Shown: positions 6,027-38,882 of the stretch, one piece after another
Numbering within the stretch: position 1 is the stretch's first letter
How the letters are laid out: every line of letters starts with the position of its first letter
Assembly: GCA_036476315.1 (NCBI GenBank)
Contig: JAZGBI010000045.1
Coordinates: 1 to 38,882, forward strand
Direction: 5' to 3'
Length of the DNA stretch: 38,882 bases
Source of the DNA: Candidatus Neomarinimicrobiota bacterium
GTDB taxonomy: Bacteria; Fidelibacterota; Marinisomatia; Marinisomatales; S15-B10
Notes under the pieces: generated by a model
Told to the model about the DNA's origin: nothing
The model's database searches: none
What the model saw: the letters and a program-made list of their open reading frames with translations, nothing else
Program-made: the position numbers and the translations under genes

Positions 6027-7013
6027 TTAAACGATCGTGTTCTCGAGAGCCCCCAGCCTTTCAATCTCCAGTCTCATAACGTCTCCTCTCTTCAGCCAAC
6101 CGCCCACATTTTCGGGTTGAAGCTCGAGAATACATCCTGTTCCCACCGTTCCTGATCCCAGAAGATCTCCAGGCAACAGGCGAGTATTGGACGATGCACG
6201 TTCGATGATTGCGCCCCATGAATGATAAAGATCATTCGCATTTCCGTTGGAGACCTCTTTTCCATTCCGGAACGCTTTCATTTCAAGATCCAGCGTGTCA
6301 TCCTTCCAGCTATCTTCAAGTTCGTCCGCCGTAACCAAGTAGGGTCCCACTGACGTGGCGAAATCCTTTCCCTTCGCGGGACCCAAATTGAGTGCCATTT
6401 CCTCCCGTTGAATGTCCCGGGCACTCCAGTCGTTGATGATCGTAAAACCTGCAATTAGTTTCTGGGCCTCCCGGGCCGATATGTCCTTTCCGCCACCGGC
6501 AATAATAATGCCCAATTCAAGCTCAAAATCGAGGGCTTCCGTCCCGGCTGGCTTCGGGACTTCCGCTCTGTGACCGTAAAGGCTGGTGGGGTTGGAGTAG
6601 TAGAAAACAGGGATCTTGTACCAGGTGGGGTCCATCTCAAGCCCCCTCTTTTCCCGGGCAGCCTTCACGTGCCTCTCGAAGGCGTAGAAATCCCTGAACG
6701 TAGGGGGATCGGGTACCGGAGGATGAAAATGAACCGAGGCTTCCTTAACGGCAACAGGAGTGTTGTCCACCGTTAAGGTTGAGAGATCTTCCTTCAGGAT
6801 CCTCCCGGCCAGGTTCTGGACCCGGGCGAACTGATGGTTCCAGTCAGCGAGAATTGCCCTCATGCCTAGGGAGATTTTGTCAAAATCTTCGGAACTTGAA
6901 CGGTTCTTTTTCAGCCACCTTGTTGACCGAATTGTGTCCACTACCCATCCATCCTGGAGAAATCCCACTCTCGGAGATTCCCTGCCTTGTGTCGAATAAG
7001 TCAGCAGGCGCAT
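6027..7013 (-). CDS. Fumarylacetoacetate hydrolase family protein
   Basis: Probably cleaves fumarylacetoacetate (or maleylacetoacetate) to acetoacetate plus fumarate or maleate, the last step of tyrosine degradation. The 328 residues match the FAH fold. FRDFYAFERH holds Asp108 and His115, LDFELELG holds metal ligands Glu164 and Glu166, and TIINDWSARD holds Asp195, followed by GPAKGKDFATSVGPYLVT. It is shorter than animal FAH. It lies between hpd and hmgA with 12-13 base gaps, and an AGGAAA site precedes ATG 7013. FAH-fold enzymes accept several acylpyruvates, so the substrate is inferred from the operon. Confidence 0.9.
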   Translation of the reverse strand: MRLLTYSTQGRESPRVGFLQDGWVVDTIRSTRWLKKNRSSSEDFDKISLGMRAILADWNHQFARVQNLAGRILKEDLSTLTVDNTPVAVKEASVHFHPPVPDPPTFRDFYAFERHVKAAREKRGLEMDPTWYKIPVFYYSNPTSLYGHRAEVPKPAGTEALDFELELGIIIAGGGKDISAREAQKLIAGFTIINDWSARDIQREEMALNLGPAKGKDFATSVGPYLVTADELEDSWKDDTLDLEMKAFRNGKEVSNGNANDLYHSWGAIIERASSNTRLLPGDLLGSGTVGTGCILELQPENVGGWLKRGDVMRLEIERLGALENTIV

Positions 7014-9567: not shown

Positions 9568-12500
9568 GTGAAGTTCCCTTACCAACTGCTTCAGATCAAG
9601 AGTAGTGAAGGAACCAGGGTTTTTCGATTCTTCCTCTGCTTTTTTCTTCTTATCTCCGCTCTCGTCGTGGGGAGGACTGCAAGGGATACTTTTTTTCTTA
9701 GCAGGTTTAGTCCAGACTATCTGCCCCACGTATTCATTGCGGTGGCCGTTGTCGTGGGCGCCGCGGTTTCTTTCTATACCCGGATGGCCAGCCGGTTCGC
9801 CATGATCCCAACTGTCCTGGCCACCTATGGCATAGCCAGCCTGTCACTTATCGTCCTGCAGTTCTTCTTGAAGCTCCCGGGTGTTTATGCCCTCCTCTAC
9901 GTCTGGATGGAAGTAATTAGCACTCTCACGACGATCCAGTTCTGGCTTCTGGCCAGTAGAGCGTTCACTACAAGAGAGGCCAAACGTTTGTTTGGCATCA
10001 TAGGAAGTGGAGGAGCTGTAGCCAGCACTGCCATTGGATTTTCCATACGACCGTTTGTTCATACCTGGGGGACTGATTATCTCCTGATGATATCGGCGGG
10101 GTTTATCCTGGCGAGTTTCGGCATGATTTACACGCTCCGCCCTTTTATCTCCGGTCTGTCAATTCCTCGCACGAAGCGACACCAGGAGGAACGTGCCTCC
10201 AGGCATCCATTTCGAAATCCGTACCTCAGGACTCTCACACTCACTGTGGGAATTTCAACGCTCGTGGCCACTCTGGTTGACTATCAGCTGAAAATCATAG
10301 CGAGTGAAAGCCTGAATGAGGCCTCCCTGGCAAGCCTGTTCGGATCACTGTATGGCATCATTGGCGTAGCATCCATTCTTATGCAGTTCCTCGTGACAGG
10401 AAGATTACTCTCCAGGTTCGGAATTCTCTGGGGACTCATGCTCCTTCCTGCTGCTCTTGTGACAGGGAACATCATGCTCCTGATTAGTCCCGTGATTCTC
10501 TCCGCGATCATTACGCGGGCAGGGGATCAAATCTTCCGATACACGGTCCACGGTTCGGCCAGCCAGCTATTGTGGCTTCCCGTGCCTGCCGGGGAGACAG
10601 GGCGGGCCAAGCCGTTCATCGAGGGTACCATGAAAAACAGTGCTCAGGCCCTGTCCGGTTTCCTCATCATCGGCATGATGACTTTCCTCGATGTTCGATT
10701 TCTTAGTGTACCTTCTCTGCTCCTCTTGATCGTCTGGATCCTCGCCAATTTCAAGTTGAGGGACGGTTACCTCACTCAGTTGCAGAAAGCCATCGAAAAG
10801 CGGTCTCTCGATTTTGTGTCATTGGAAATCGATGTCACCGATCCCCTGATTGTCAAAACTGTTCGAAAAGCCATCATGGAAGGGGATGATCATCAGAGGC
10901 TTTTTGCTCTCGATAGCATCAAGGACCTTTCTCTTTCGCCGTGGTCAGCCGATTTGAGAAAGGTCTTTCCAGGAACATCACCCATTGTTCAGAAGAAGAT
11001 TCTGGAATTAGCAAGGAGAAACAGCGACGCGGTATCCGATGAGGACATACTGTCTCTGATGCATTCCGAAGATGATGGTGTAGCCGCTGAAGCTATGGTC
11101 GCCTGTGGCGAGCGGGAGCTTACACATGGCCTTCCGGCTCTCCGGGACATGCTTTCCTCGAACATTCACCGACGACGGTCAGGAGCGGCCGCGGGTATTC
11201 TGTTGATGGGAGTCAACAATGCTTCCAGGGCCAACTCAATTCTGAAAAGCATGCTCTACGACCCAAACAACGATATCCAGATTGCCGCGCTTCAGTCGGT
11301 TGGTCACATCCCCGCCATCGTCTCTGACAAGGGATTGGCAACACTACTTGAAGACGATTCTACCGACGTTCGGAATCTCGCCATCGGCTTGGCTGCCCAG
11401 CGCGGAAATCCCCTTCTGATACCCTCTCTTGTAAACAATCTTGGGGATCCTGCAACAATGTTCTCAGCCCGCGACGCACTGAGATCGTTTGATCCAGACG
11501 AGGTAACATCCACTCTTATCGAAAGACTGCCTGAGACGAGAGCATCCACAGCGCTTACGGCAGGAATCATACGAGCCCTGGGGAAATTCGGCAGGGGCCC
11601 TTCGGTGGACCCGGTTATACGGATGCTGAACGATGGGGAAGAGACGGTGACAGAAGAAATCGTAAACGCCCTGGTGAAAATCTCCCGGCGCGAAGGACTT
11701 ACCGAGGATCAGCTGACCGACATTGAGACGGTTCGAGATGGATTCATTCAGTCTTCCCACACTCACGCAGCCCTGCTTTCCCGGTTTACAGGGAACGACT
11801 CCGCCATCCTGATAAAAGACCACCTGCTCGTAACACTTGAGAAGCAGAGAAAGTGGATCCTGAAGCTCAGTCTCCTCCGTTTCCCTGACAGTCCAGTGGA
11901 AACTTTCTTACACCGTCTGTCCTCGGGTGATTTGAGAGCCAGGGCGAATGTGCTGGAAATGCTTGATAACCTGATGTCACATGATGATCGGGAAAGAATC
12001 CTGCCCCTTTTTGATGACGCTCCATCCCAGGATAGGATTTCTCATATTCAGGTGTCCCTGGAACAAACACTGGCAGAATGGCTCCGCTCAGGAAACGAAT
12101 GGATATCTGTAATTGCTCTGGACTACGTTTTGAGGAATAAGATGGTGCACATACTGGAGCTGAGCGAATGGGAACATGAGTCGGATTGGATGCGTTCTTC
12201 CGATTCCATGTTACACAAGGAGGTCATGACTCAAGACTGGAATCGGCAGGAATCATCGCTGCGACAGATGCCAGACTTTCAATGGGAAAAACTAATATTG
12301 AAGGAGATGCCCATGTACTCAACGCTTGAAAAGACTATTTTTATGAAAGGGGTAGCCCTGTTCCAGGAAATCTCTGGAGAAGAGGTAGCTCGCGTCGCCC
12401 AGATCTCAGAAGAAAGGCGGCTGAGTGCCGGTGAATCGGTATTCGACGAAGGGGATGTAGGGGATTCCATGTTCATTATCATGAATGGACAGATCCGCGT

Positions 12501-30114: not shown

Positions 30115-30282
30115 TTCTTGGCATCTAATATCCCCTGATTGCAGAACACAATTTATCGTACAGAGTTTTCCAAAACACCGTGACTGAGGCAATATGGACA
30201 TTTGAGCTGACAGCGTACCGGACTTGAAATCCACCGATGGTAAACAGCGGTAACTCTTATGAAGACACTCCTTCGGCAGGGG

Positions 30283-30318
30283 TTTTTTCTTGACTTTTCT
30301 TGTCTTACAAAGGATATT
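30283..30318 (+). promoter_or_regulatory. Candidate promoter of the M28 peptidase gene
   Basis: TTTTTTCTTGACTTT (30283-30297) holds -35 TTGACT (30290-30295); GATATT (30313-30318) lies 17 bases on. It lies inside the longer open frame that begins at ATG 30259, which argues that translation starts downstream at GTG 30391. No other signal is seen in 30115-30282 except one copy of TCCTTCGGCAGG (30269-30280). Confidence 0.55.
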
Positions 30319-30390
30319 GTCTATCACGGATGCAACAACAACAAAGACTTGGGTGGCTGTTTGCCTTTTACATTCAGGGAGGGTAGTCAT

Positions 30391-32805
30391 GTGAGAGTTT
30401 CATTGGGATACGTTTTTCTTATTGGGATTTTCGTCACCTCAATAATTACAGGTACGATCATCAGAGTCCCCCAGCACCCGCTGAAGAATGCATACACCTT
30501 CCAAAGCCAGTTACCGCTCAATCCACTCATCGAGGAAATGGTCAATATGGTCTCAGAGGATGAACTTCTGAACAATCTTGAATCACTGGTGGGGTTCCAC
30601 ACTCGCCATACGTCATCGGACACTTCCTCAACCGATACTGGGATCGGGGCGGCTCGGAATTTCATATTGAGCAGTTTCGAGGAATATAGACAAGCCGGCG
30701 GAGGCTCTTTGGAAGCCAGTTTCTTCGTTTTCCCGGCAACTGTATGTGAAGTCGTCAATTCTGCCCACAAGAATGTCCTGGCCACCATACCTGGGATTTC
30801 CACCCCTGAAAGGGTGTTCATGGCTAGCGGACATATGGACAACAGACCCATTGACATCTGCGATTTCACCTCCTTCGCCCCCGGGGCGAACGATGACGGC
30901 AGCGGAACGGTTGTATCCATGGAGCTGGCCCGAATATTCAGTCATTTTACAGACAGCTTTGAAAGCACAGTGATCCTAATGACAGTCACCGGCGAAGACG
31001 AAGGACTCTACGGGAGCACCGCCTATGCAGATTGGGCCCTGGAGAACGACCTGGGTATTAATGGTATGATCACAAATGACGTGGTGGGAAACATAGAAGG
31101 ATGCGTGGATCCGGAGTGTCCCACGGGAGAGGAAATTATCATAGACAGCACAAGTGTGAGGCATTTTTCCGGTGACCCGTCCACGTCAACTTCCCGACAA
31201 CTGTCCCGATACATGAAGCTCAAGGCGGAGCGGTATGTTAATGACGTGGATTGGACTGTCAATCTGATCCCAAGCATTGACCGGCCAGGGCGGGGCGGGG
31301 ACCACATGCCTTTCTACAATAATGGATATCCCGCGGTAAGGTTTACGGAACCCCACGAATATGGCGACGGCTCTGGACTAAACGGTCGTCAACACAACGA
31401 AACGGACCTGGTGGAGTTCATGGATATGCCTTATCTCGCCCGTATCGTGAAAACAAATATAGCTGGCCTGGCATCACTTGCCATGGCCCCGGACCGACCC
31501 AAAGATCTGGTGGCTGAGGACCCGGGAACGGGGACACAGATCCTGATGACCTGGCCTTTCACTCAATCTGAAGCGGATTTCTCCGGCTACCGTGTCGCCT
31601 ATCGGTCGACGTACCCTGAAGAATCCCTTTTCTACAACGATATAATTGACGTAGGAAATGTGAACCAGTATACCCTCTCGGGCCTGAAACCCAATGTCTC
31701 CCTTTATGTGAGCGTTTCCGCCTATGACACGTCAGGGAATGAGAGTGTCTTCTCGGACGAGGTCCTACTTGCCCCCATTGTCGTGGAAGAAGTCAGTGTT
31801 CTTCCGACTTATGTAACACCTGGCAAAGATTCCGTGGTCGTGACTGGTGTTGTCGTGAGTGACACATCTGGACTTACCCTTTACGCCGAGATAGAGACAC
31901 CGGATGAGAGGCCACTTGACTCACTTCGTTTGTATGATGACGGGACTCACGAGGATGTCGCAGCAGGAGACGGTCTGTTTGCGAACGTCTGGCCGGCCCC
32001 ACCGATCGACGAACAAGTTTATTTTGTCGATCTCCATATTACAATAAGTGACAGCGACACAGTCACTTCTGAGCTTGATAACGTGCAATTATTCACCACT
32101 ATTGGCCCTCTTGCTTATGAATCGGTAGTGCCTCTAAATGATACCATTCCGAACCCCGGGGAGAACTTAATATTTAGGGTCAATCTAAAAAATCATGGGT
32201 CAACAGCCACCGCAACCGATGTTACCGCACAACTAAGCTCCAGTCATACGTGTGTGAATGAACTGATCGCAAACAATGCGGGTTGGGCTGACATCCCTGC
32301 CGGAGAAAGTTCTAATATGACCTCTGGCTTTTACATTTTGAACATCGCAGAGACCTGTCCAGGGGGAACAGATATCCCCATTGATATGTCTATCGCCAGT
32401 GAAGGTTACTTTTTCTGGAGTGATAGTTTCACTATACACGTATACGACATAGGGCCAGTTGAAATAGCAAATCAGGAAGGGATACTTCCCGAGGTACACG
32501 CCCTGCTTCAGAACTACCCTAACCCCTTCAACCCAGTCACAACCTTACGGTATGATCTACCTGAGCGATCTGAGGTTGTGCTAACGGTTTATGACATCAT
32601 GGGCAGAGAGGCCAGGACGTTGGTTCAAGGTATGGAAGAGCCGGGATACAAGTCGGTCAGCTGGGATGGCACTGATGATTCTGGCAATCCTGTGAGCGCA
32701 GGAGTTTACCTGTACCGCATCTTCGCCGGCGGGGTCCTTCGGACAGGATCCTTCGGGCAGGCTGGTGATTTTACTCAGACCCGCAAGATGTTGCTACTCA
32801 AGTAG
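30391..32805 (+). CDS. Secreted M28-family metallopeptidase with FnIII, Ig-like and sorting domains
   Basis: An exported zinc aminopeptidase-like protein of 804 residues from GTG 30391, chosen because GGGAGG precedes it, a signal peptide follows (YVFLIGIFVTSIITG) and the promoter lies upstream. The M28 domain (about 50-350) has all zinc and catalytic residues: His148 (GHMD), Asp168 (GANDDGSG), Glu202/Glu204 (GEDEG), Asp230 (TNDVVGN) and His322 (TEPHEYG). An FnIII domain (about 365-465), Ig-like modules (to about 690) and a C-terminal sorting domain (NYPNPFNP ... WDGTDDSGNPVSAGVYLYR) follow. The last 330 residues are homologous to those of the preceding gene. Probably degrades peptides outside the cell or at its surface. 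Confidence 0.92.
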   Translation: MRVSLGYVFLIGIFVTSIITGTIIRVPQHPLKNAYTFQSQLPLNPLIEEMVNMVSEDELLNNLESLVGFHTRHTSSDTSSTDTGIGAARNFILSSFEEYRQAGGGSLEASFFVFPATVCEVVNSAHKNVLATIPGISTPERVFMASGHMDNRPIDICDFTSFAPGANDDGSGTVVSMELARIFSHFTDSFESTVILMTVTGEDEGLYGSTAYADWALENDLGINGMITNDVVGNIEGCVDPECPTGEEIIIDSTSVRHFSGDPSTSTSRQLSRYMKLKAERYVNDVDWTVNLIPSIDRPGRGGDHMPFYNNGYPAVRFTEPHEYGDGSGLNGRQHNETDLVEFMDMPYLARIVKTNIAGLASLAMAPDRPKDLVAEDPGTGTQILMTWPFTQSEADFSGYRVAYRSTYPEESLFYNDIIDVGNVNQYTLSGLKPNVSLYVSVSAYDTSGNESVFSDEVLLAPIVVEEVSVLPTYVTPGKDSVVVTGVVVSDTSGLTLYAEIETPDERPLDSLRLYDDGTHEDVAAGDGLFANVWPAPPIDEQVYFVDLHITISDSDTVTSELDNVQLFTTIGPLAYESVVPLNDTIPNPGENLIFRVNLKNHGSTATATDVTAQLSSSHTCVNELIANNAGWADIPAGESSNMTSGFYILNIAETCPGGTDIPIDMSIASEGYFFWSDSFTIHVYDIGPVEIANQEGILPEVHALLQNYPNPFNPVTTLRYDLPERSEVVLTVYDIMGREARTLVQGMEEPGYKSVSWDGTDDSGNPVSAGVYLYRIFAGGVLRTGSFGQAGDFTQTRKMLLLK
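32735..32762 (+). repeat. 14-bp tandem repeat in the peptidase sorting domain
   Basis: TCCTTCGGACAGGA (32735-32748) is followed at once by TCCTTCGGGCAGGC (32749-32762). The same motif occurs once at the equivalent place in the 27976 gene (30025-30037), and TCCTTCGGCAGG occurs at 30269-30280. The extra copy adds residues (GVLRTG) just before FGQAGDF. Confidence 0.6.
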
Positions 32806-32928
32806 CCTTCTAGAACCTACCCAATCCCCGCCTACGGACTATGAGTCCGTTGCCCGAATGTCGGTTTACCGACGAGCCTCTACCCTTTCCGTTTCCCTTG
32901 TATCCACAGAAACCGTATCCATAATCTG
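32767..32928 (+). repeat. Direct repeat, copy A (peptidase gene end plus downstream)
   Basis: About 160 bases starting in the last codons of the peptidase gene (TRKMLLLK and stop) and extending some 120 bases downstream match 35366-35527. There are identical runs of 17 bases (32776-32792 = 35375-35391) and 27 bases (32864-32890 = 35463-35489), all at an offset of 2599. Small hairpins CGGACT-atg-AGTCCG and GTCGG-ttta-CCGAC lie in this copy only. Confidence 0.85.
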
Positions 32929-33573
32929 GTAATATTTGGCTTTAGTTGACAGAGTCTCACGGAGTTCACCCAATCAAATAACCCCGCCCTCTCCCAATGA
33001 GAAAGTGGGGTCTTCGATGAGCTTGCACCTCGTCCGTCTTCATTTCATCATGACGGATAAATAGTGGAGCGTAGAAGTGCTTGCTCGTCGTAACGAAGTG
33101 TAAACGAGTACCCTGGGCCCGACTCCCCGCCAGCCAGCGAGCAGGGAACCTGTGGCCTACGGATCATCCAGAGGAACCTTCGGAGAAGAGCGCTGCTGGC
33201 ATCACAATTTATTGACGTGCGAGACGCATTTCAATCTCATTTGCATCCACCAATCCGTATCCACTTTCGTGCTGTTCGGTTGGTTTTGAAGGCACTTGAT
33301 ATATACTTGGCTAATGAGGAAGTTTCTCATTACTATTCAGCGGTTAGTGAATCTTAACGAGGTGGGGCTGTTACAATGGCGGGTAAAGGATTGTCGCTCA
33401 GTATATCCAGTGGATGCGCCTTTCAGTGTGGGTCGTTTCTTCCGTTATAAATCTTCCCGTTCTTGAGAACCAATGACTATTCATTTCTACGCCCGCAATC
33501 AAAGTAACCTTGTGAAGAATGAATGGGTATTTCCGGAACCCATGTCGCTTCCCGATCGTGATGATCGCAGGAT
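32929..33573. other. Gene-free region before the LCAT-like gene
   Basis: About 645 bases without a supportable gene. ACCCC ... GGGGT (around 32982-33012, with an inner TCTC/GAGA pairing) and AATGAG-gaagttt-CTCATT (around 33313-33331) are weak hairpins. TTGGTT (33280-33285) and TATACT (33302-33307), 16 bases apart, could be a weak promoter about 270 bases before the lipase gene. The open frames on either strand have no recognisable content. Confidence 0.45.
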
Positions 33574-34980
33574 GTGAGGATGAAGCAATTGAAACCAACA
33601 GTTCTTGGTTTGGCATTCACGCTGTCCATAACGGCTTGGACTTGCACAGGGCCACCTGGGCTGTTACCTAGAGCGGGCGTTTCCATCCATCCCGAGAATC
33701 CAGTAATCATTATTCCGGGAATAATGGGAACACAGCTGATTGATCCGGAGACAGGGGACGTAGTCTGGGGAAAAATTTTTGATCTGAAAGCTATGGGACC
33801 TCATGAAGCGCTCATAAACCCGAACAGGGATGGCATTGAACTTCCCATAAATCGCAGGCCGATTCAGCACAACCGAGACAAGCTCGTTCCGAGTTCGATA
33901 GTTACCCGGTTCGAAATGATTAACCGGGTCCTGGAAGTGAAAGTGTATCAAGGACTTGTTGAAACGCTGTCGAGCTGCGGACTCCACAAAGGAGACATTC
34001 AACACTGTACAGCCCAGGACAACCTGTTTCTTTTCCCTTATGATTGGAGGCGGGACCTGGTGGAATCAGCGATTCTTCTTGGGGAGCGTATCGAGGCGAT
34101 CAAAAGGGTCTACCGTAATCCCGATCAGAAGCTGACGATCATCGCCCACAGCATGGGAGGCCTTGTTGCAAAATACTACCTGATGTATGGCCAGAAGGAC
34201 GTGATCACTGGAGTGGATGATGTGAGCCAGCTACCTCAGCCAGATTACTCGGGTGCTCGAAACATTGACAAGATTTTTTTCCTCGGAACCCCTCACCGCG
34301 GTTCTGCTTATGCGTTCAAAGCATTGCATGAGGGTGAATACCTCATGCCCCTTCTTTCCGTTTCCAGCTGGGCAACCTTCACGATGCCATCTTTGTACGA
34401 AATGTTGCCCCTTGACTCAAAAACATTCATCCGTGACCGGCAAGGAAACTCGCTTGATATCGATATCCACAATATTCAAACATGGACGGAATACGGGCTT
34501 GGCATTTTCAACGATGTGGAGTGGAAATCTTTCGAGCACCAGTGCTCTATTCTCTTTCCTGAAAAGGGAGCAGAGCTTGCACGCTCGAGATGGTTTGAAT
34601 TCAGAGATTTCATTCATGATGCTCTTGTGCGCGGAAAGTTTTTCCAAGCTACTCTCGCGAAATTGGATTGGGATAAAGTTGAGACGGATCATTACATAAT
34701 TGCTGGGAATTGCTATCCTACCTTGAGTGGAGTGGAGGTTGTAGAATCGAAGTCTGGCAAAGCGGAGTTTCGTGCTGTGAAGAGAAAACTGTTCAAGGAA
34801 AAGTACTATCTTACTGACAAGGGCGATTACACGGTGTTATACCGAGATCAATCGCCGGAGATTGACTCAGCCAGGGGTGTTCTGACCGGCTGTTTTACGC
34901 ACCGGCGGATGCCCAGCTATCGTGAGGTCCAGCAGTTGATTATTGAGAGCTTGCAGTTAGAAAGAAAATCCCCCGGCTAA
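33574..34980 (+). CDS. LCAT-like alpha/beta-hydrolase (lipase/acyltransferase), exported
   Basis: A 468-residue protein of the lecithin:cholesterol acyltransferase-like family, which hydrolyses or transfers acyl chains of phospholipids. An N-terminal signal peptide (about 1-25, ending near AWTC) suggests export, perhaps as a lipoprotein, though the lipobox is not canonical. VIIIPGIMGTQLIDPETG (near 46-63) is the oxyanion-side motif, FPYDWRRDLVES is family-like, IAHSMGGLVAKYY carries nucleophile Ser193, and FLGTPHRGSAYAF follows. C-terminal GCFTHRRMPSYREVQQLI contains the likely catalytic His. The start is GTG 33574 (ATG 33580 is an alternative; the ribosome site is weak). It is bracketed by the direct repeat A/B. 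Confidence 0.85.
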   Translation: MRMKQLKPTVLGLAFTLSITAWTCTGPPGLLPRAGVSIHPENPVIIIPGIMGTQLIDPETGDVVWGKIFDLKAMGPHEALINPNRDGIELPINRRPIQHNRDKLVPSSIVTRFEMINRVLEVKVYQGLVETLSSCGLHKGDIQHCTAQDNLFLFPYDWRRDLVESAILLGERIEAIKRVYRNPDQKLTIIAHSMGGLVAKYYLMYGQKDVITGVDDVSQLPQPDYSGARNIDKIFFLGTPHRGSAYAFKALHEGEYLMPLLSVSSWATFTMPSLYEMLPLDSKTFIRDRQGNSLDIDIHNIQTWTEYGLGIFNDVEWKSFEHQCSILFPEKGAELARSRWFEFRDFIHDALVRGKFFQATLAKLDWDKVETDHYIIAGNCYPTLSGVEVVESKSGKAEFRAVKRKLFKEKYYLTDKGDYTVLYRDQSPEIDSARGVLTGCFTHRRMPSYREVQQLIIESLQLERKSPG

Positions 34981-35090
34981 ACAGTCATTTTTGAAGTGCA
35001 ATCACGCATTCTTTTAGACCACGGTTTTGAACGCGTTGCCAAGATCGTATCGGCGGTGATCGTCGGTTTTCTTCTTGGATAGCTTTTCTA

Positions 35091-35365
35091 AAGGTAGACT
35101 TGGAAGATCCCGAATTCAGAAAGAAAAAGTTGAGTATTGCTGATGCATATTATCAATCGAAACGAGCCCAAGTGATGTATACTTATTGGCTTGCGGAAAG
35201 ACTGAAAGATACAAATATCACGGCCAATTGCATCCAGGTACCTGCAGTCCGAGTGGATGTTAGTAGATATTCGAACCTCCCCTCAATCATGAGATTTCTC
35301 TACTCGCTCAAGAGCAAATTCGCTTTGACGTCTGAAGAGATGGCAGAAACATATACTTATCTGGC
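35091..35365 (+). pseudogene. Remnant of a retinol-dehydrogenase-like SDR gene
   Basis: The frame from about 35091 reads as the middle-to-late part of an SDR: KVDLEDPEFRKKK, then AYYQSKRAQVMYTYWLAERL with the catalytic Tyr-xxx-Lys, then NITANCIQVPAVRVDV and LTSEEMAETYTYLAT. The N-terminal cofactor domain is absent upstream, where 34981-35090 has no matching sequence, and the C-terminus is replaced after TYLATL by repeat copy B read in another frame (RPARCYCSNSPF). Both ends are therefore lost and no good start exists (TTG at 35100 opens the frame). It is unrelated in detail to the SDR at 25953. Confidence 0.8.
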
Positions 35366-35527
35366 GACTTTATCCAGACCCGCAAGATGTTATTGCTCAA
35401 ATAGCCCTTTCTAATCTCCCAATCTCCCGTCTACGTACTGTGAGTCCGTTGCCGTGAAGCCAGTTTACCGACGAGCCTCTACCCTTTCCATTTCCCTTGT
35501 GTCCATAGAAACCGTATCCATAATTCT
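35366..35527 (+). repeat. Direct repeat, copy B (orphan sorting-domain gene end)
   Basis: It matches 32767-32928. In the ancestral frame it encodes IQTRKMLLLK and a TAG stop, the tail of a sorting-domain gene whose body is missing, followed by the same downstream sequence. The SDR remnant enters it in a different frame. Some differences lie in loops of the hairpins of copy A, so those stems are not conserved. Nothing is recognised in 35528-35727. Confidence 0.85.
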
Positions 35528-35727
35528 GCTTTTCAACACATTTTGAGTCTGCTGCTAACGTGATTTATGGCCGTTGCCCTCTGTAATTGTGGTTGAATTT
35601 GCTTTGGGGTTTTGTAAGTTTAATTGTGCTGGTGATTCCCAATCCATATCGTCAATGATCTCATCCACATTTCACATCATAGCACGCCCCCAGATGGCCA
35701 GGAACGAATCATGAAAGATCACTTGGG

Positions 35728-37881
35728 ATGTTGAAACTCATCGGCACTTCCCTTCTCACTGCCGCTGTCATGTTTTTGTTTACCCTTGTATCGTTAAGCT
35801 GCGAGATTAAGAAGGAGAACCCCTATACGGAATGGAGAATGTATGGGGGTGACCCGGAGGGGAGCCGTTATTCAGACCTTGACCAGATCAATCGCTCGAA
35901 TGTTCACCAACTCCAAGTGGCGTGGGTTTACCACACCGGAGACAAGCGAGATGATCCACCTTCCACCATCGAATGCAATCCGATTGTCGTGGACGGAGTC
36001 ATGTTTGTCACCTCCCCTTCTCTGAAGGTCATTGCCCTGGATCCGGTGACCGGGGAAATGATTTGGACATTCGATCCATTTGAGGGAGAGATGGCGAAAG
36101 GAATCAGCCGTGGCGTCACGTATTGGGAGGACGGAGACGATAAGAGAGTTCTCTTTACGGCAGGTTCCAGGCTTTACGCCCTGGATGCGGAAACCGGGAG
36201 ACCGATTCCCGACTTCGGTGATTCCGGGACGGTGGATCTTCGAAAGGGGTTGGACAGGGACATAACAGGACTCTCTATAGGTGCAACGACACCGGGAATT
36301 ATATATAACAATCTCATTATTCTTGGTTCGTCGGTGGGTGAGGGACCACAACCGGCGGCACCGGGTCACGTCCGTGCCTTTGACGCGCGGACTGGCGACA
36401 GAATGTGGATCTTCCACACGATTCCACACCCCGGGGAGTTTGGGTATGAAACGTGGGCAGAGGATTCCTGGAAAACCGCCGGTGGTGCCAATAACTGGGG
36501 AGGTATGACACTTGACCAGAAGCGGGGATTGGTGTTCATCGCCACCGGATCTCCCAGCTTCGATTTCTATGGTGGTGACCGTCACGGCAAGAACCTGTTT
36601 GCCAATTCGATTGTTGCCCTCAAGGCAACCACCGGGGAACGTGTCTGGCATTTCCAGACGGTCCATCACGATCTTTGGGATTCTGATCTGCCGTGCCCCC
36701 CCAATTTGGTTACGGTGGATCCCGACGGGTCGGGAAGGCCAATAGATGCTGTTTCACAGGTGACTAAAACGGGCAACGTTTTCCTGCTGAACCGTGACAC
36801 CGGGGAGCCTCTGTTCACCGTCGAAGAGCGGCCGGTTCCATCTTCAGATCTGGAAGGTGAAGAGGCATGGCCTACTCAGCCGATTCCTCTGAAACCGCCC
36901 CCATTCGCTCGGCAGGCTTATACCGAAGATGAGGTGACAGATATATCACCGGAAGCACATGAGTTTATTCTCCGACGGTTCAAAGAGGCAAGAGGTGGTG
37001 AGATTTTCGTGCCACCAAGCCAGGAAGGCACCATTGTATTTCCCGGATTCCACGGAGGTGCCAACTGGAGCGGTGCCTCCTTTGACCCAACCACAGGGAT
37101 CTTATATGTCAACTCAAATGAAATCCCCTGGATCGTAACCATGAAGAAGGTGATCTCTGACCAAGGCGCGTCCCCTGCTCCCGCAGGCGAAGACATCTAC
37201 CGCATCTACTGCGCGAGCTGTCACGGCCTGGACAGGGAACAAGATGATCTACCCACCTTCTCCTCGATTCAGATCATAAAGAGAAATATTCCTGAGTCGG
37301 AAATATTGCAGTTGATCGATCACGGGCAGGGGCAGATGCCCGCCTTTCAGAATCTCTCGGATCAGGAGAAAGATGCTCTGGTTGCGTTTCTGTCCGGGAA
37401 AGAAGAACAGATTGGCCCGGAGATCAAGTATCCGTACCCCTATCTCTTCACCGGCTATCATCGCTTTATAGACCAGGACGGGTATCCGGCGGTCAAACCT
37501 CCCTGGGGTACTCTTAACGCCATCAACTTGAACACGGGAGAAATTGTCTGGAAAGTTCCCCTCGGGGACGTTCCAGAACTAGTGGATCGCGGTCTTTCAC
37601 CCACCGGCACGGAGACCTTTGGGGGCTGTGTTGTAACGGCCGGCGGATTGGTGTTTATTGGAGCGACCAAAGATGAAAAATTTCGCGCCTTTGACAAAGA
37701 CACGGGGGAAATGCTCTGGGAAACATCACTGGAAGCGGGGGGAATGGCCACGCCCTGTACGTACGAAGTAGCGGGCAAACAGTATGTTGTGATCGCCGCC
37801 GGTGGTGGCGCCGGAAAGCGCGCCCGGGGAAAACTGGATAAGAAATCGGGGGATGCCTATGTGGCCTTCGCCTTGCCCTAG
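35728..37881 (+). CDS. PQQ-dependent dehydrogenase with inserted cytochrome c domain
   Basis: A 717-residue periplasmic quinoprotein, probably a sugar or alcohol dehydrogenase that passes electrons from PQQ to heme c. A hydrophobic leader ends VSLSC (Cys25, a possible lipid anchor). WRMYGGDPEGSRYSDLDQIN and NVHQLQVAWVYHTGD open the propeller, and repeated W-type motifs follow (ALDPVTGEMIWTF, AFDARTGDRMWIF, ALKATTGERVWHF, INLNTGEIVWKV, AFDKDTGEMLWE). A c-type cytochrome (about 485-575; Cys495-AS-Cys498-His499) is inserted within the propeller before the last blades, with GQMPAF supplying the distal Met. ATG 35728 has only a weak ribosome site. The substrate cannot be told. Confidence 0.93.
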   Translation: MLKLIGTSLLTAAVMFLFTLVSLSCEIKKENPYTEWRMYGGDPEGSRYSDLDQINRSNVHQLQVAWVYHTGDKRDDPPSTIECNPIVVDGVMFVTSPSLKVIALDPVTGEMIWTFDPFEGEMAKGISRGVTYWEDGDDKRVLFTAGSRLYALDAETGRPIPDFGDSGTVDLRKGLDRDITGLSIGATTPGIIYNNLIILGSSVGEGPQPAAPGHVRAFDARTGDRMWIFHTIPHPGEFGYETWAEDSWKTAGGANNWGGMTLDQKRGLVFIATGSPSFDFYGGDRHGKNLFANSIVALKATTGERVWHFQTVHHDLWDSDLPCPPNLVTVDPDGSGRPIDAVSQVTKTGNVFLLNRDTGEPLFTVEERPVPSSDLEGEEAWPTQPIPLKPPPFARQAYTEDEVTDISPEAHEFILRRFKEARGGEIFVPPSQEGTIVFPGFHGGANWSGASFDPTTGILYVNSNEIPWIVTMKKVISDQGASPAPAGEDIYRIYCASCHGLDREQDDLPTFSSIQIIKRNIPESEILQLIDHGQGQMPAFQNLSDQEKDALVAFLSGKEEQIGPEIKYPYPYLFTGYHRFIDQDGYPAVKPPWGTLNAINLNTGEIVWKVPLGDVPELVDRGLSPTGTETFGGCVVTAGGLVFIGATKDEKFRAFDKDTGEMLWETSLEAGGMATPCTYEVAGKQYVVIAAGGGAGKRARGKLDKKSGDAYVAFALP

Positions 37882-38571: not shown

Positions 38572-38715
38572 TTAGATCAACTACAGGTTCACATAGCATG
38601 GAAAGGGAGCAGGCATTGTCCTGTTTCCTTTCCTCTTGTTGGTGTAATCCTTACTTATTTTAACAATCAGAAATTCCCTGATTGATTCTTATATGATTTT
38701 GGTTTAACATGATTT

Positions 38716-38793
38716 AAGATGGGTACTATCCATACAGGATAGCTGAGATTAGACCCTTACAACCTGAACTGGGTAATGCCAGCGGAGGGAAAT
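38716..38793 (+). ncRNA. TPP riboswitch (THI element)
   Basis: The thi-box core is complete: the 5' GGGTA segment, a P3 stem CTATCC-ataca-GGATAG, CTGAGA (38743-38748), ACCC (38753-38756), ACCTGAAC (38762-38769), then GGTAATGCCAGCG (38772-38784) and GGAGGGAA. These are the pyrimidine- and pyrophosphate-sensing elements of thiamine pyrophosphate aptamers. It faces right, so it controls a thiamine synthesis or transport gene beyond the window. The P1 helix looks weak. Confidence 0.93.
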
Positions 38794-38846
38794 GAGAAAC
38801 AGACTATCAGAACCGTCTTCGGTTTGAGGGCGTTTTCTGTTTTCTC
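38794..38846 (+). terminator. Expression platform of the TPP riboswitch
   Basis: GAGAAACAGA (38794-38803) can pair with TCTGTTTTCTC (38836-38846, one bulged base), enclosing a small AACCG-tctt-CGGTT hairpin (38811-38824). The U-rich 3' arm makes an attenuator possible. Whether the switch acts on termination or on translation cannot be decided because the gene start is outside the window. Confidence 0.45.
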
Positions 38847-38882
38847 TCAGACTCCCGCTGTTCAGTCGAAGTAATTTCTTTA

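Follow-up and report, generated by a model that had tools for sequence, protein, structure and literature searches.

A direct repeat with attachment-site-like layout behind type IX secretion genes in a marine Candidatus Marinimicrobia genome

The window analyzed here, a stretch of 38,882 nucleotides (nt) from Candidatus Neomarinimicrobiota bacterium (GenBank assembly GCA_036476315.1, contig JAZGBI010000045.1; C45 in our numbering of the contigs), belongs to a 2.6-Mb metagenome-assembled genome of Candidatus Marinimicrobia and contains a direct repeat that joins the end of a gene with a type IX secretion system (T9SS) sorting domain to the DNA behind it. Judged from sequence, this 3′ flank probably represents an attR- or attP-like end of integrative elements that use the anticodon loop of tRNA genes as the crossover site of their tyrosine recombinase, and the lipase-bearing segment between the two copies would be cargo enclosed by two such ends. 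The flank is read as an attachment (att) end since its layout recurs at tRNA halves and integrase ends and since the same layout is described in the literature.

The repeat and its copies in the genome

Aligned without gaps, the repeat comprises 32762-32925 (copy A) and 35361-35524 (copy B), i.e., 164 nt with 82% identity at an offset of exactly 2599, and a gapped alignment extends it to 32762-32929 and 35361-35529. A run of 27 bases without any mismatch (GTTTACCGACGAGCCTCTACCCTTTCC) is common to both copies. The local alignment score of the repeat was 224, compared to at most 161 (mean 42) for other 551-nt stretches of the window outside 32.5-36.0 kb, with the maximum of 161 probably stemming from a paralogous T9SS gene end, and a genome search with copy A as query returned copy B with an E-value of 9.7e-42. 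Both alignments confirm the repeat, the offset and the 27-base run reported, at this place, in an earlier note based on the letters of the DNA. The coding part of copy A (GDFTQTRKMLLLK tail, 32762-32805, plus strand) is the end of a complete gene for an M28 peptidase. The description of copy B as an orphan tail, joined out of frame to a truncated short-chain dehydrogenase/reductase (SDR), was likewise found to be correct, as alignment and reading frame place a tail with its own frame (LSGDFIQTRKMLLLK*) at 35361-35404 (plus strand), the gene before it is broken, and the SDR-like frame enters the tail out of frame.

Pattern and BLAST searches of the genome yielded five full or nearly full copies of tail plus flank, namely two each on C45 and C92 and one on C64, and the possibility that only the two copies in the window exist is thereby excluded. 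All other matches to copy A were short and of two kinds, covering either only the sorting-domain coding end or only the last ~40 nt. Just these two kinds of short match were found in 60 relatives, so that, of the genomes searched, this one alone has the joined unit. The earlier proposal that tail and 3′ flank move together by homologous recombination thus holds in so far as the unit is present in several copies. The flank is more than DNA dragged along, though, because it has the anatomy of an integrase att site and also occurs without a T9SS tail, next to tRNA halves and integrase genes. Its distal motif consists of two direct repeats within the last 40 nt (GTRTCCAYA-N6-GTRTCCAYA), for which the genome contains 13 matches and none for the reversed pattern. 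A slightly narrower version of this arm pattern matched exactly in 9 of 130 genomes of the order and in none of the controls; a search of 2.9 million viral contigs for the exact arm pattern gave no match.

Layout of the flank and its siblings at tRNA genes and integrases

The flank is made up of an anticodon-arm hairpin, ~20 nt, a CGACGAG box, ~23 nt and two direct arm repeats. On the minus strand this corresponds to arm-type repeats (TATGGATACGGTTTCTGTGGATAC), ~23 nt, a CTCGTCG box, ~20 nt and a core with a 5-bp inverted repeat around a 7-nt overlap. For copy A, the hairpin and a comparison of cores place the core (ACGGA-CTCATAG-TCCGT; ACGGACTCATAGTCCGT on the minus strand) at 32834-32850, minus strand; it resembles a tRNA-Met anticodon arm with anticodon CAT and comes near to the anticodon arm of the genome's own tRNA-Met (..CCGGACTCATAATCCGTTGG..). 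The box follows at 32870-32876, with a similar one at most sites, and the paired arm repeats (GTATCCACA-GAAACC-GTATCCATA), which belong to the 13 pattern matches mentioned above, lie at 32900-32923. The likeness of copy A to other sites reaches to ~32964 (blastn of 32900-32964 against C14 and C23: 82%). In copy B, the same core comparison, complemented for the arms by the pattern search, identified an anticodon-arm hairpin with one stem mismatch and anticodon CAC (35433-35449, minus strand), the box (35469-35475) and the arm repeats GTGTCCATA-GAAACC-GTATCCATA (35499-35522). The arms are located 49 nt after the core in both copies and 45-52 nt after it at nearly all other hairpin sites.

Of 38 sites, 11 have a perfect 5-bp stem with a 7-nt loop at the spacing that the layout predicts, as compared to 5% of control windows (P 1.7e-6, an optimistic value given that there are related sites among the 38). 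Among six related cores, only 1 of 60 stem positions has changed, versus 14 of 42 loop positions (P 9e-6). The 7-nt loop is most likely the recombination overlap. This layout is established in the literature, where the overlap is formed by the 7-bp anticodon loop and the core inverted repeat by its stem (PMC8371274; PMC4383910), and islands in tRNA genes leave displaced tRNA fragments behind (PMC4383910).

Such fragments accompany several sibling sites. In the genome itself (Pro-GGG on C14, Val-TAC on C112) and in relatives (Met, Val and Lys in genome G032, Val in G038), sites come immediately after the displaced 3′ half of a tRNA gene cut at its anticodon arm, while others have an intact tRNA gene ~100-150 nt before them. 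Starting from a C-terminal fragment of an integrase at a site in G038, intact tyrosine recombinases were traced within the order. The genes of these integrases end over or just before paired repeats, which are followed by a GTCGAC-like box, an anticodon arm and a tRNA 3′ half (G019, Ser; G080 and G083, Gly); the same layout, with less clear arm repeats, is seen in G052 (Val). The box near the ends of the intact integrase loci is GTCGACGA-like. The genome under study has a comparable locus on C68, where an integrase gene (447 aa) runs into GTGTCCCTA-N6-GTGTCCCTA and a displaced tRNA-Ser(GGA) 3′ half comes right behind; an intact tRNA-Ser(GGA) gene is found on C14. We also considered that the arms might be nothing but the 3′-terminal stretch of the integrase gene, which fits C68 and G019, where the repeats are in the coding frame. 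At loci L097 and L099 a stop codon precedes the repeats, and the arms were therefore treated as elements of the site.

Further small repeats were noted. A repeat of ~60-70 nt (80-88% identity) occurs at 33019-33092 of the window, on C68 (3410-3481, just after the displaced tRNA-Ser half), C12 and C23. A small palindromic insert like CCAGAGGATCCTTCGGAGAAG is present at 33160-33190 of the window, on C12 (~8400) and on C90 (~20950), in two cases within the anticodon-arm core of an att-like site. On C12 (L053, 3024-3269), the 3′ end of a tRNA-Asn is immediately followed by an open reading frame named GIY-YIG-like by eye.

Origin of the joined units and alternative explanations

Based on this anatomy, we suggest that elements with att sites of the tRNA-anticodon type brought or captured T9SS genes and other genes for secreted proteins. 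One lineage of att ends would have become joined to the 3′ end of a T9SS gene and would then have multiplied, which would account for the five copies and for two others whose core belongs to another family. Subsequently, integrase genes would have been lost, with the att ends persisting behind the cargo as relics or non-autonomous ends. The segment from 32.8 to 35.4 kb, which comprises the lipase, the SDR remnant and a T9SS tail, would accordingly most likely be an eroded or non-autonomous islet without an integrase of its own and with its ends in direct orientation. We infer that an integrase formerly recombined these ends and thereby brought in the lipase; homologous recombination between the ends and T9SS paralogues would have added mosaicism. 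As neither an integrase nor a remnant of one was found in the window, nor an empty site, the two ends in the window are regarded as relics or non-autonomous.

Several observations weigh against an integrative origin. tblastn searches with intact and partial integrases detected no integrase or recognizable remnant beside the sites of the window, and the integrase on C68 has arms that are spelled differently (GTGTCCCTA), so that the cognate recombinase would have to be encoded outside the assembly; for TATGGATAC-type arms, position points to just one integrase, the fragment in G038. The cores linked to T9SS ends, those of copies A and B among them, lack a recognizable tRNA 3′ half, the arm alone remaining. 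The 7-nt overlaps differ between cores, which would hinder present-day exchange among them. Neither an excised circle nor an empty site was found, the relatives of the neighboring pyrroloquinoline quinone (PQQ)-dependent dehydrogenase within the family being only 40-44% identical and the orthologous locus not identifiable. It speaks for such an origin that a T9SS end lies no more than 250 nt away at 7 of ~15 sites, although the genome holds only 43 T9SS tails. The five tail-plus-flank copies are nevertheless related by descent, and with C99/C1 (Val-like core) and C112 (real tRNA-Val half, ~600 nt away) being separate from them, the association amounts to about three independent cases. Finally, copy B and one of the copies on C92 (C92b, 6408-6759) share a block that ends inside two genes, which an integrase would not bring about.

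This block goes beyond the ~160 bases of the earlier note, as it extends over ~355 nt from the tail through the att-like end and the promoter region up to the start codon of the next gene (35361-35715, plus strand; aligned 35363-35715, 80% over 354 nt). Its downstream part is carried by these two places only, the genes following it are unrelated, and the gene body upstream of copy B is the SDR piece. Duplication or homologous exchange would explain the block better than an integrase. Furthermore, T9SS tails are fused directly to truncated thiamine pyrophosphate (TPP) riboswitch leaders on C92 (9827) and on C14. Neither the block bounded within genes nor these fusions are integrase products, so duplication, homologous exchange and deletion must have contributed. 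Because of such mosaic joins, the recombination idea of the earlier note is retained as a partial explanation, and homologous shuffling probably contributed as well.

It appears considerably less probable, yet worth serious consideration, that recombination or gene conversion among T9SS paralogues accounts for the whole pattern, with tail and flank as passenger and the att-like motif as an inert old relic. The 355-nt block bounded inside two genes is in line with this, as are the T9SS tails joined to truncated TPP leaders, which indicate that flanks other than att ends were shuffled too, and the 43 T9SS tails provide ample substrate. On the other hand, the flank recurs without a T9SS tail at tRNA halves and integrase genes, and the pattern of conserved stems and changed loops is unlike neutral decay.

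More tentatively still, the sites may belong to a trans-mobilized cassette system outside integrons, in which T9SS cargo genes, each closed by an att site of the tRNA-anticodon type, would form arrays in direct orientation, often with TPP-riboswitch leaders starting the next gene, and would be moved by tRNA-targeting integrases encoded elsewhere.

It is very improbable that the flank is a conserved element of the 3′ untranslated region of T9SS genes, that is, a terminator or structured RNA. It does lie directly behind stop codons and contains hairpins, but no T-run follows the hairpin, the repeat region has no Rfam match, most of the 43 T9SS genes lack the flank, and it is also found away from T9SS genes and beside tRNA halves. 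Least credible are integron gene cassettes, i.e., T9SS gene plus flank as a cassette with attC recombined by the genome's own integron integrase: such an integrase is indeed encoded (TIGR02249, 439 bits at a cut-off of 265) with small divergently oriented genes beside it, but the inter-gene sequences at that integron on C83 are attC-like (..AACAA..GGCGTTAG..) and, compared by eye, unlike the flank in the window with its direct arm repeats and its tRNA anticodon arm, and the cargo genes come with their own long leaders. The true integron itself occupies 12717-17103 of C83 (L077), where IntI is divergent from small genes including a pair named BrnT/BrnA-like by eye.

Neighboring genes, known systems and biological meaning

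The M28 peptidase gene (30259-32805, plus strand; Pfam Peptidase_M28, 77 bits) encodes a secreted protein that contains fn3 and, at its C-terminus, a T9SS type A sorting domain (TIGR04183, 27.6 bits). Between the two att-like ends lies an intact gene for an LCAT/PGAP1-type lipase of 468 aa (33574-34980, plus strand; Pfam LCAT, 48.4 bits), for which no homologue was found in nine other genomes of the family. The suggestion of the earlier note that the lipase segment was inserted gains some weight from the gene being private to this genome within the family, an absence compatible with insertion, though of little weight between genomes this distant. The SDR remnant (35100-35360, plus strand) is truncated at both ends: its N-terminal part is missing, and the join at 35361 cuts it off. 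Its match to adh_short is weak and below cut-off (E 0.005) and is confined to positions 146-189 of 195. The right-hand neighbor is the PQQ-dependent dehydrogenase with a cytochrome c domain (35728-37881, plus strand; Pfam PQQ, 684 bits).

TPP-riboswitch-like leaders are amplified in this genome, with 12 matches at E≤0.01 compared to 0-1 in each of 30 relatives; three of the 12 are above the Rfam cut-off, the others being partial or degenerate. They are located at 38709-38807 of the window and on contigs C92, C99, C1, C12, C48, C8, C73 and C93. Several have the terminator CAGAATCCTCTTCGGTTTGAAGGGGATTTTT, four have an att-like site 100-200 nt before them, and some are followed by T9SS or FG-GAP genes. 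In both T9SS-TPP fusions (C92 9788-9886, L029; C14, L055 ~690-735) the leader is cut at about the same aptamer position (..CTTACAACCTGAACTGGG..), and an internal deletion on C8 (45656) ends at that same position. The window at 38741-38882 and C92 at 9822-9961 are 96% identical to the end of both contigs, i.e., the assembly breaks in a repeat. A serpin gene on C1 (L036, 5097-6509; Pfam Serpin, 402 bits) adjoins an att-like site and a T9SS end.

Among known systems, the Islander class A islands with crossover in the anticodon loop (PMC4383910) share with the sibling sites an attP with a tRNA fragment, a tyrosine integrase, displaced 3′ tRNA fragments and tandem accretion. Copies A and B show the anticodon-arm core and the arm repeats at fixed distance typical of such islands. 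In contrast to them, the window sites have neither an integrase nor a tRNA 3′ half, the core being followed by a T9SS gene end; an adjoining integrase is found at C68 and in relatives. Tycheposons (PMC10872708) are likewise marine, tRNA-associated, cargo-carrying and linked to a tyrosine recombinase, but they measure 4-200 kb, have their own recombinase and are bordered by tRNA genes, whereas the segments here are ~2.6-4.3 kb long, contain one or two genes and carry no recombinase, the 2.6-kb segment of the window also having no adjacent tRNA. Integron cassette arrays are similar in that genes are followed by a recombination-type site and successive sites have the same orientation (C92, C99, C1, C45). 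They differ in that the sites described here are of a core-and-arm type with a tRNA arm and, set apart by eye, not attC, the real integron being the one on C83. Searching the literature, albeit leaving out most subscription journals, yielded no description of such elements in Marinimicrobia. Islands targeting tRNA genes are already known; what appears to be new is that ends in direct orientation, lacking an integrase, lie behind T9SS genes and combine conserved stems with variable overlaps. Since Islander-type finders require an integrase and a tRNA fragment inside the candidate (PMC4383910), short integrase-less segments would be missed by them. Cores with variable loops and conserved stems provide a sequence signature that is open to direct search.

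If the att-end interpretation is correct, the known chemistry of anticodon-loop integrases would be tied to the way in which an uncultured marine phylum turns over its secreted degradative enzymes, and att ends would persist as repeats behind cargo genes after loss of the integrase. The repeat would then record how this bacterium acquires and shuffles its secreted enzymes.

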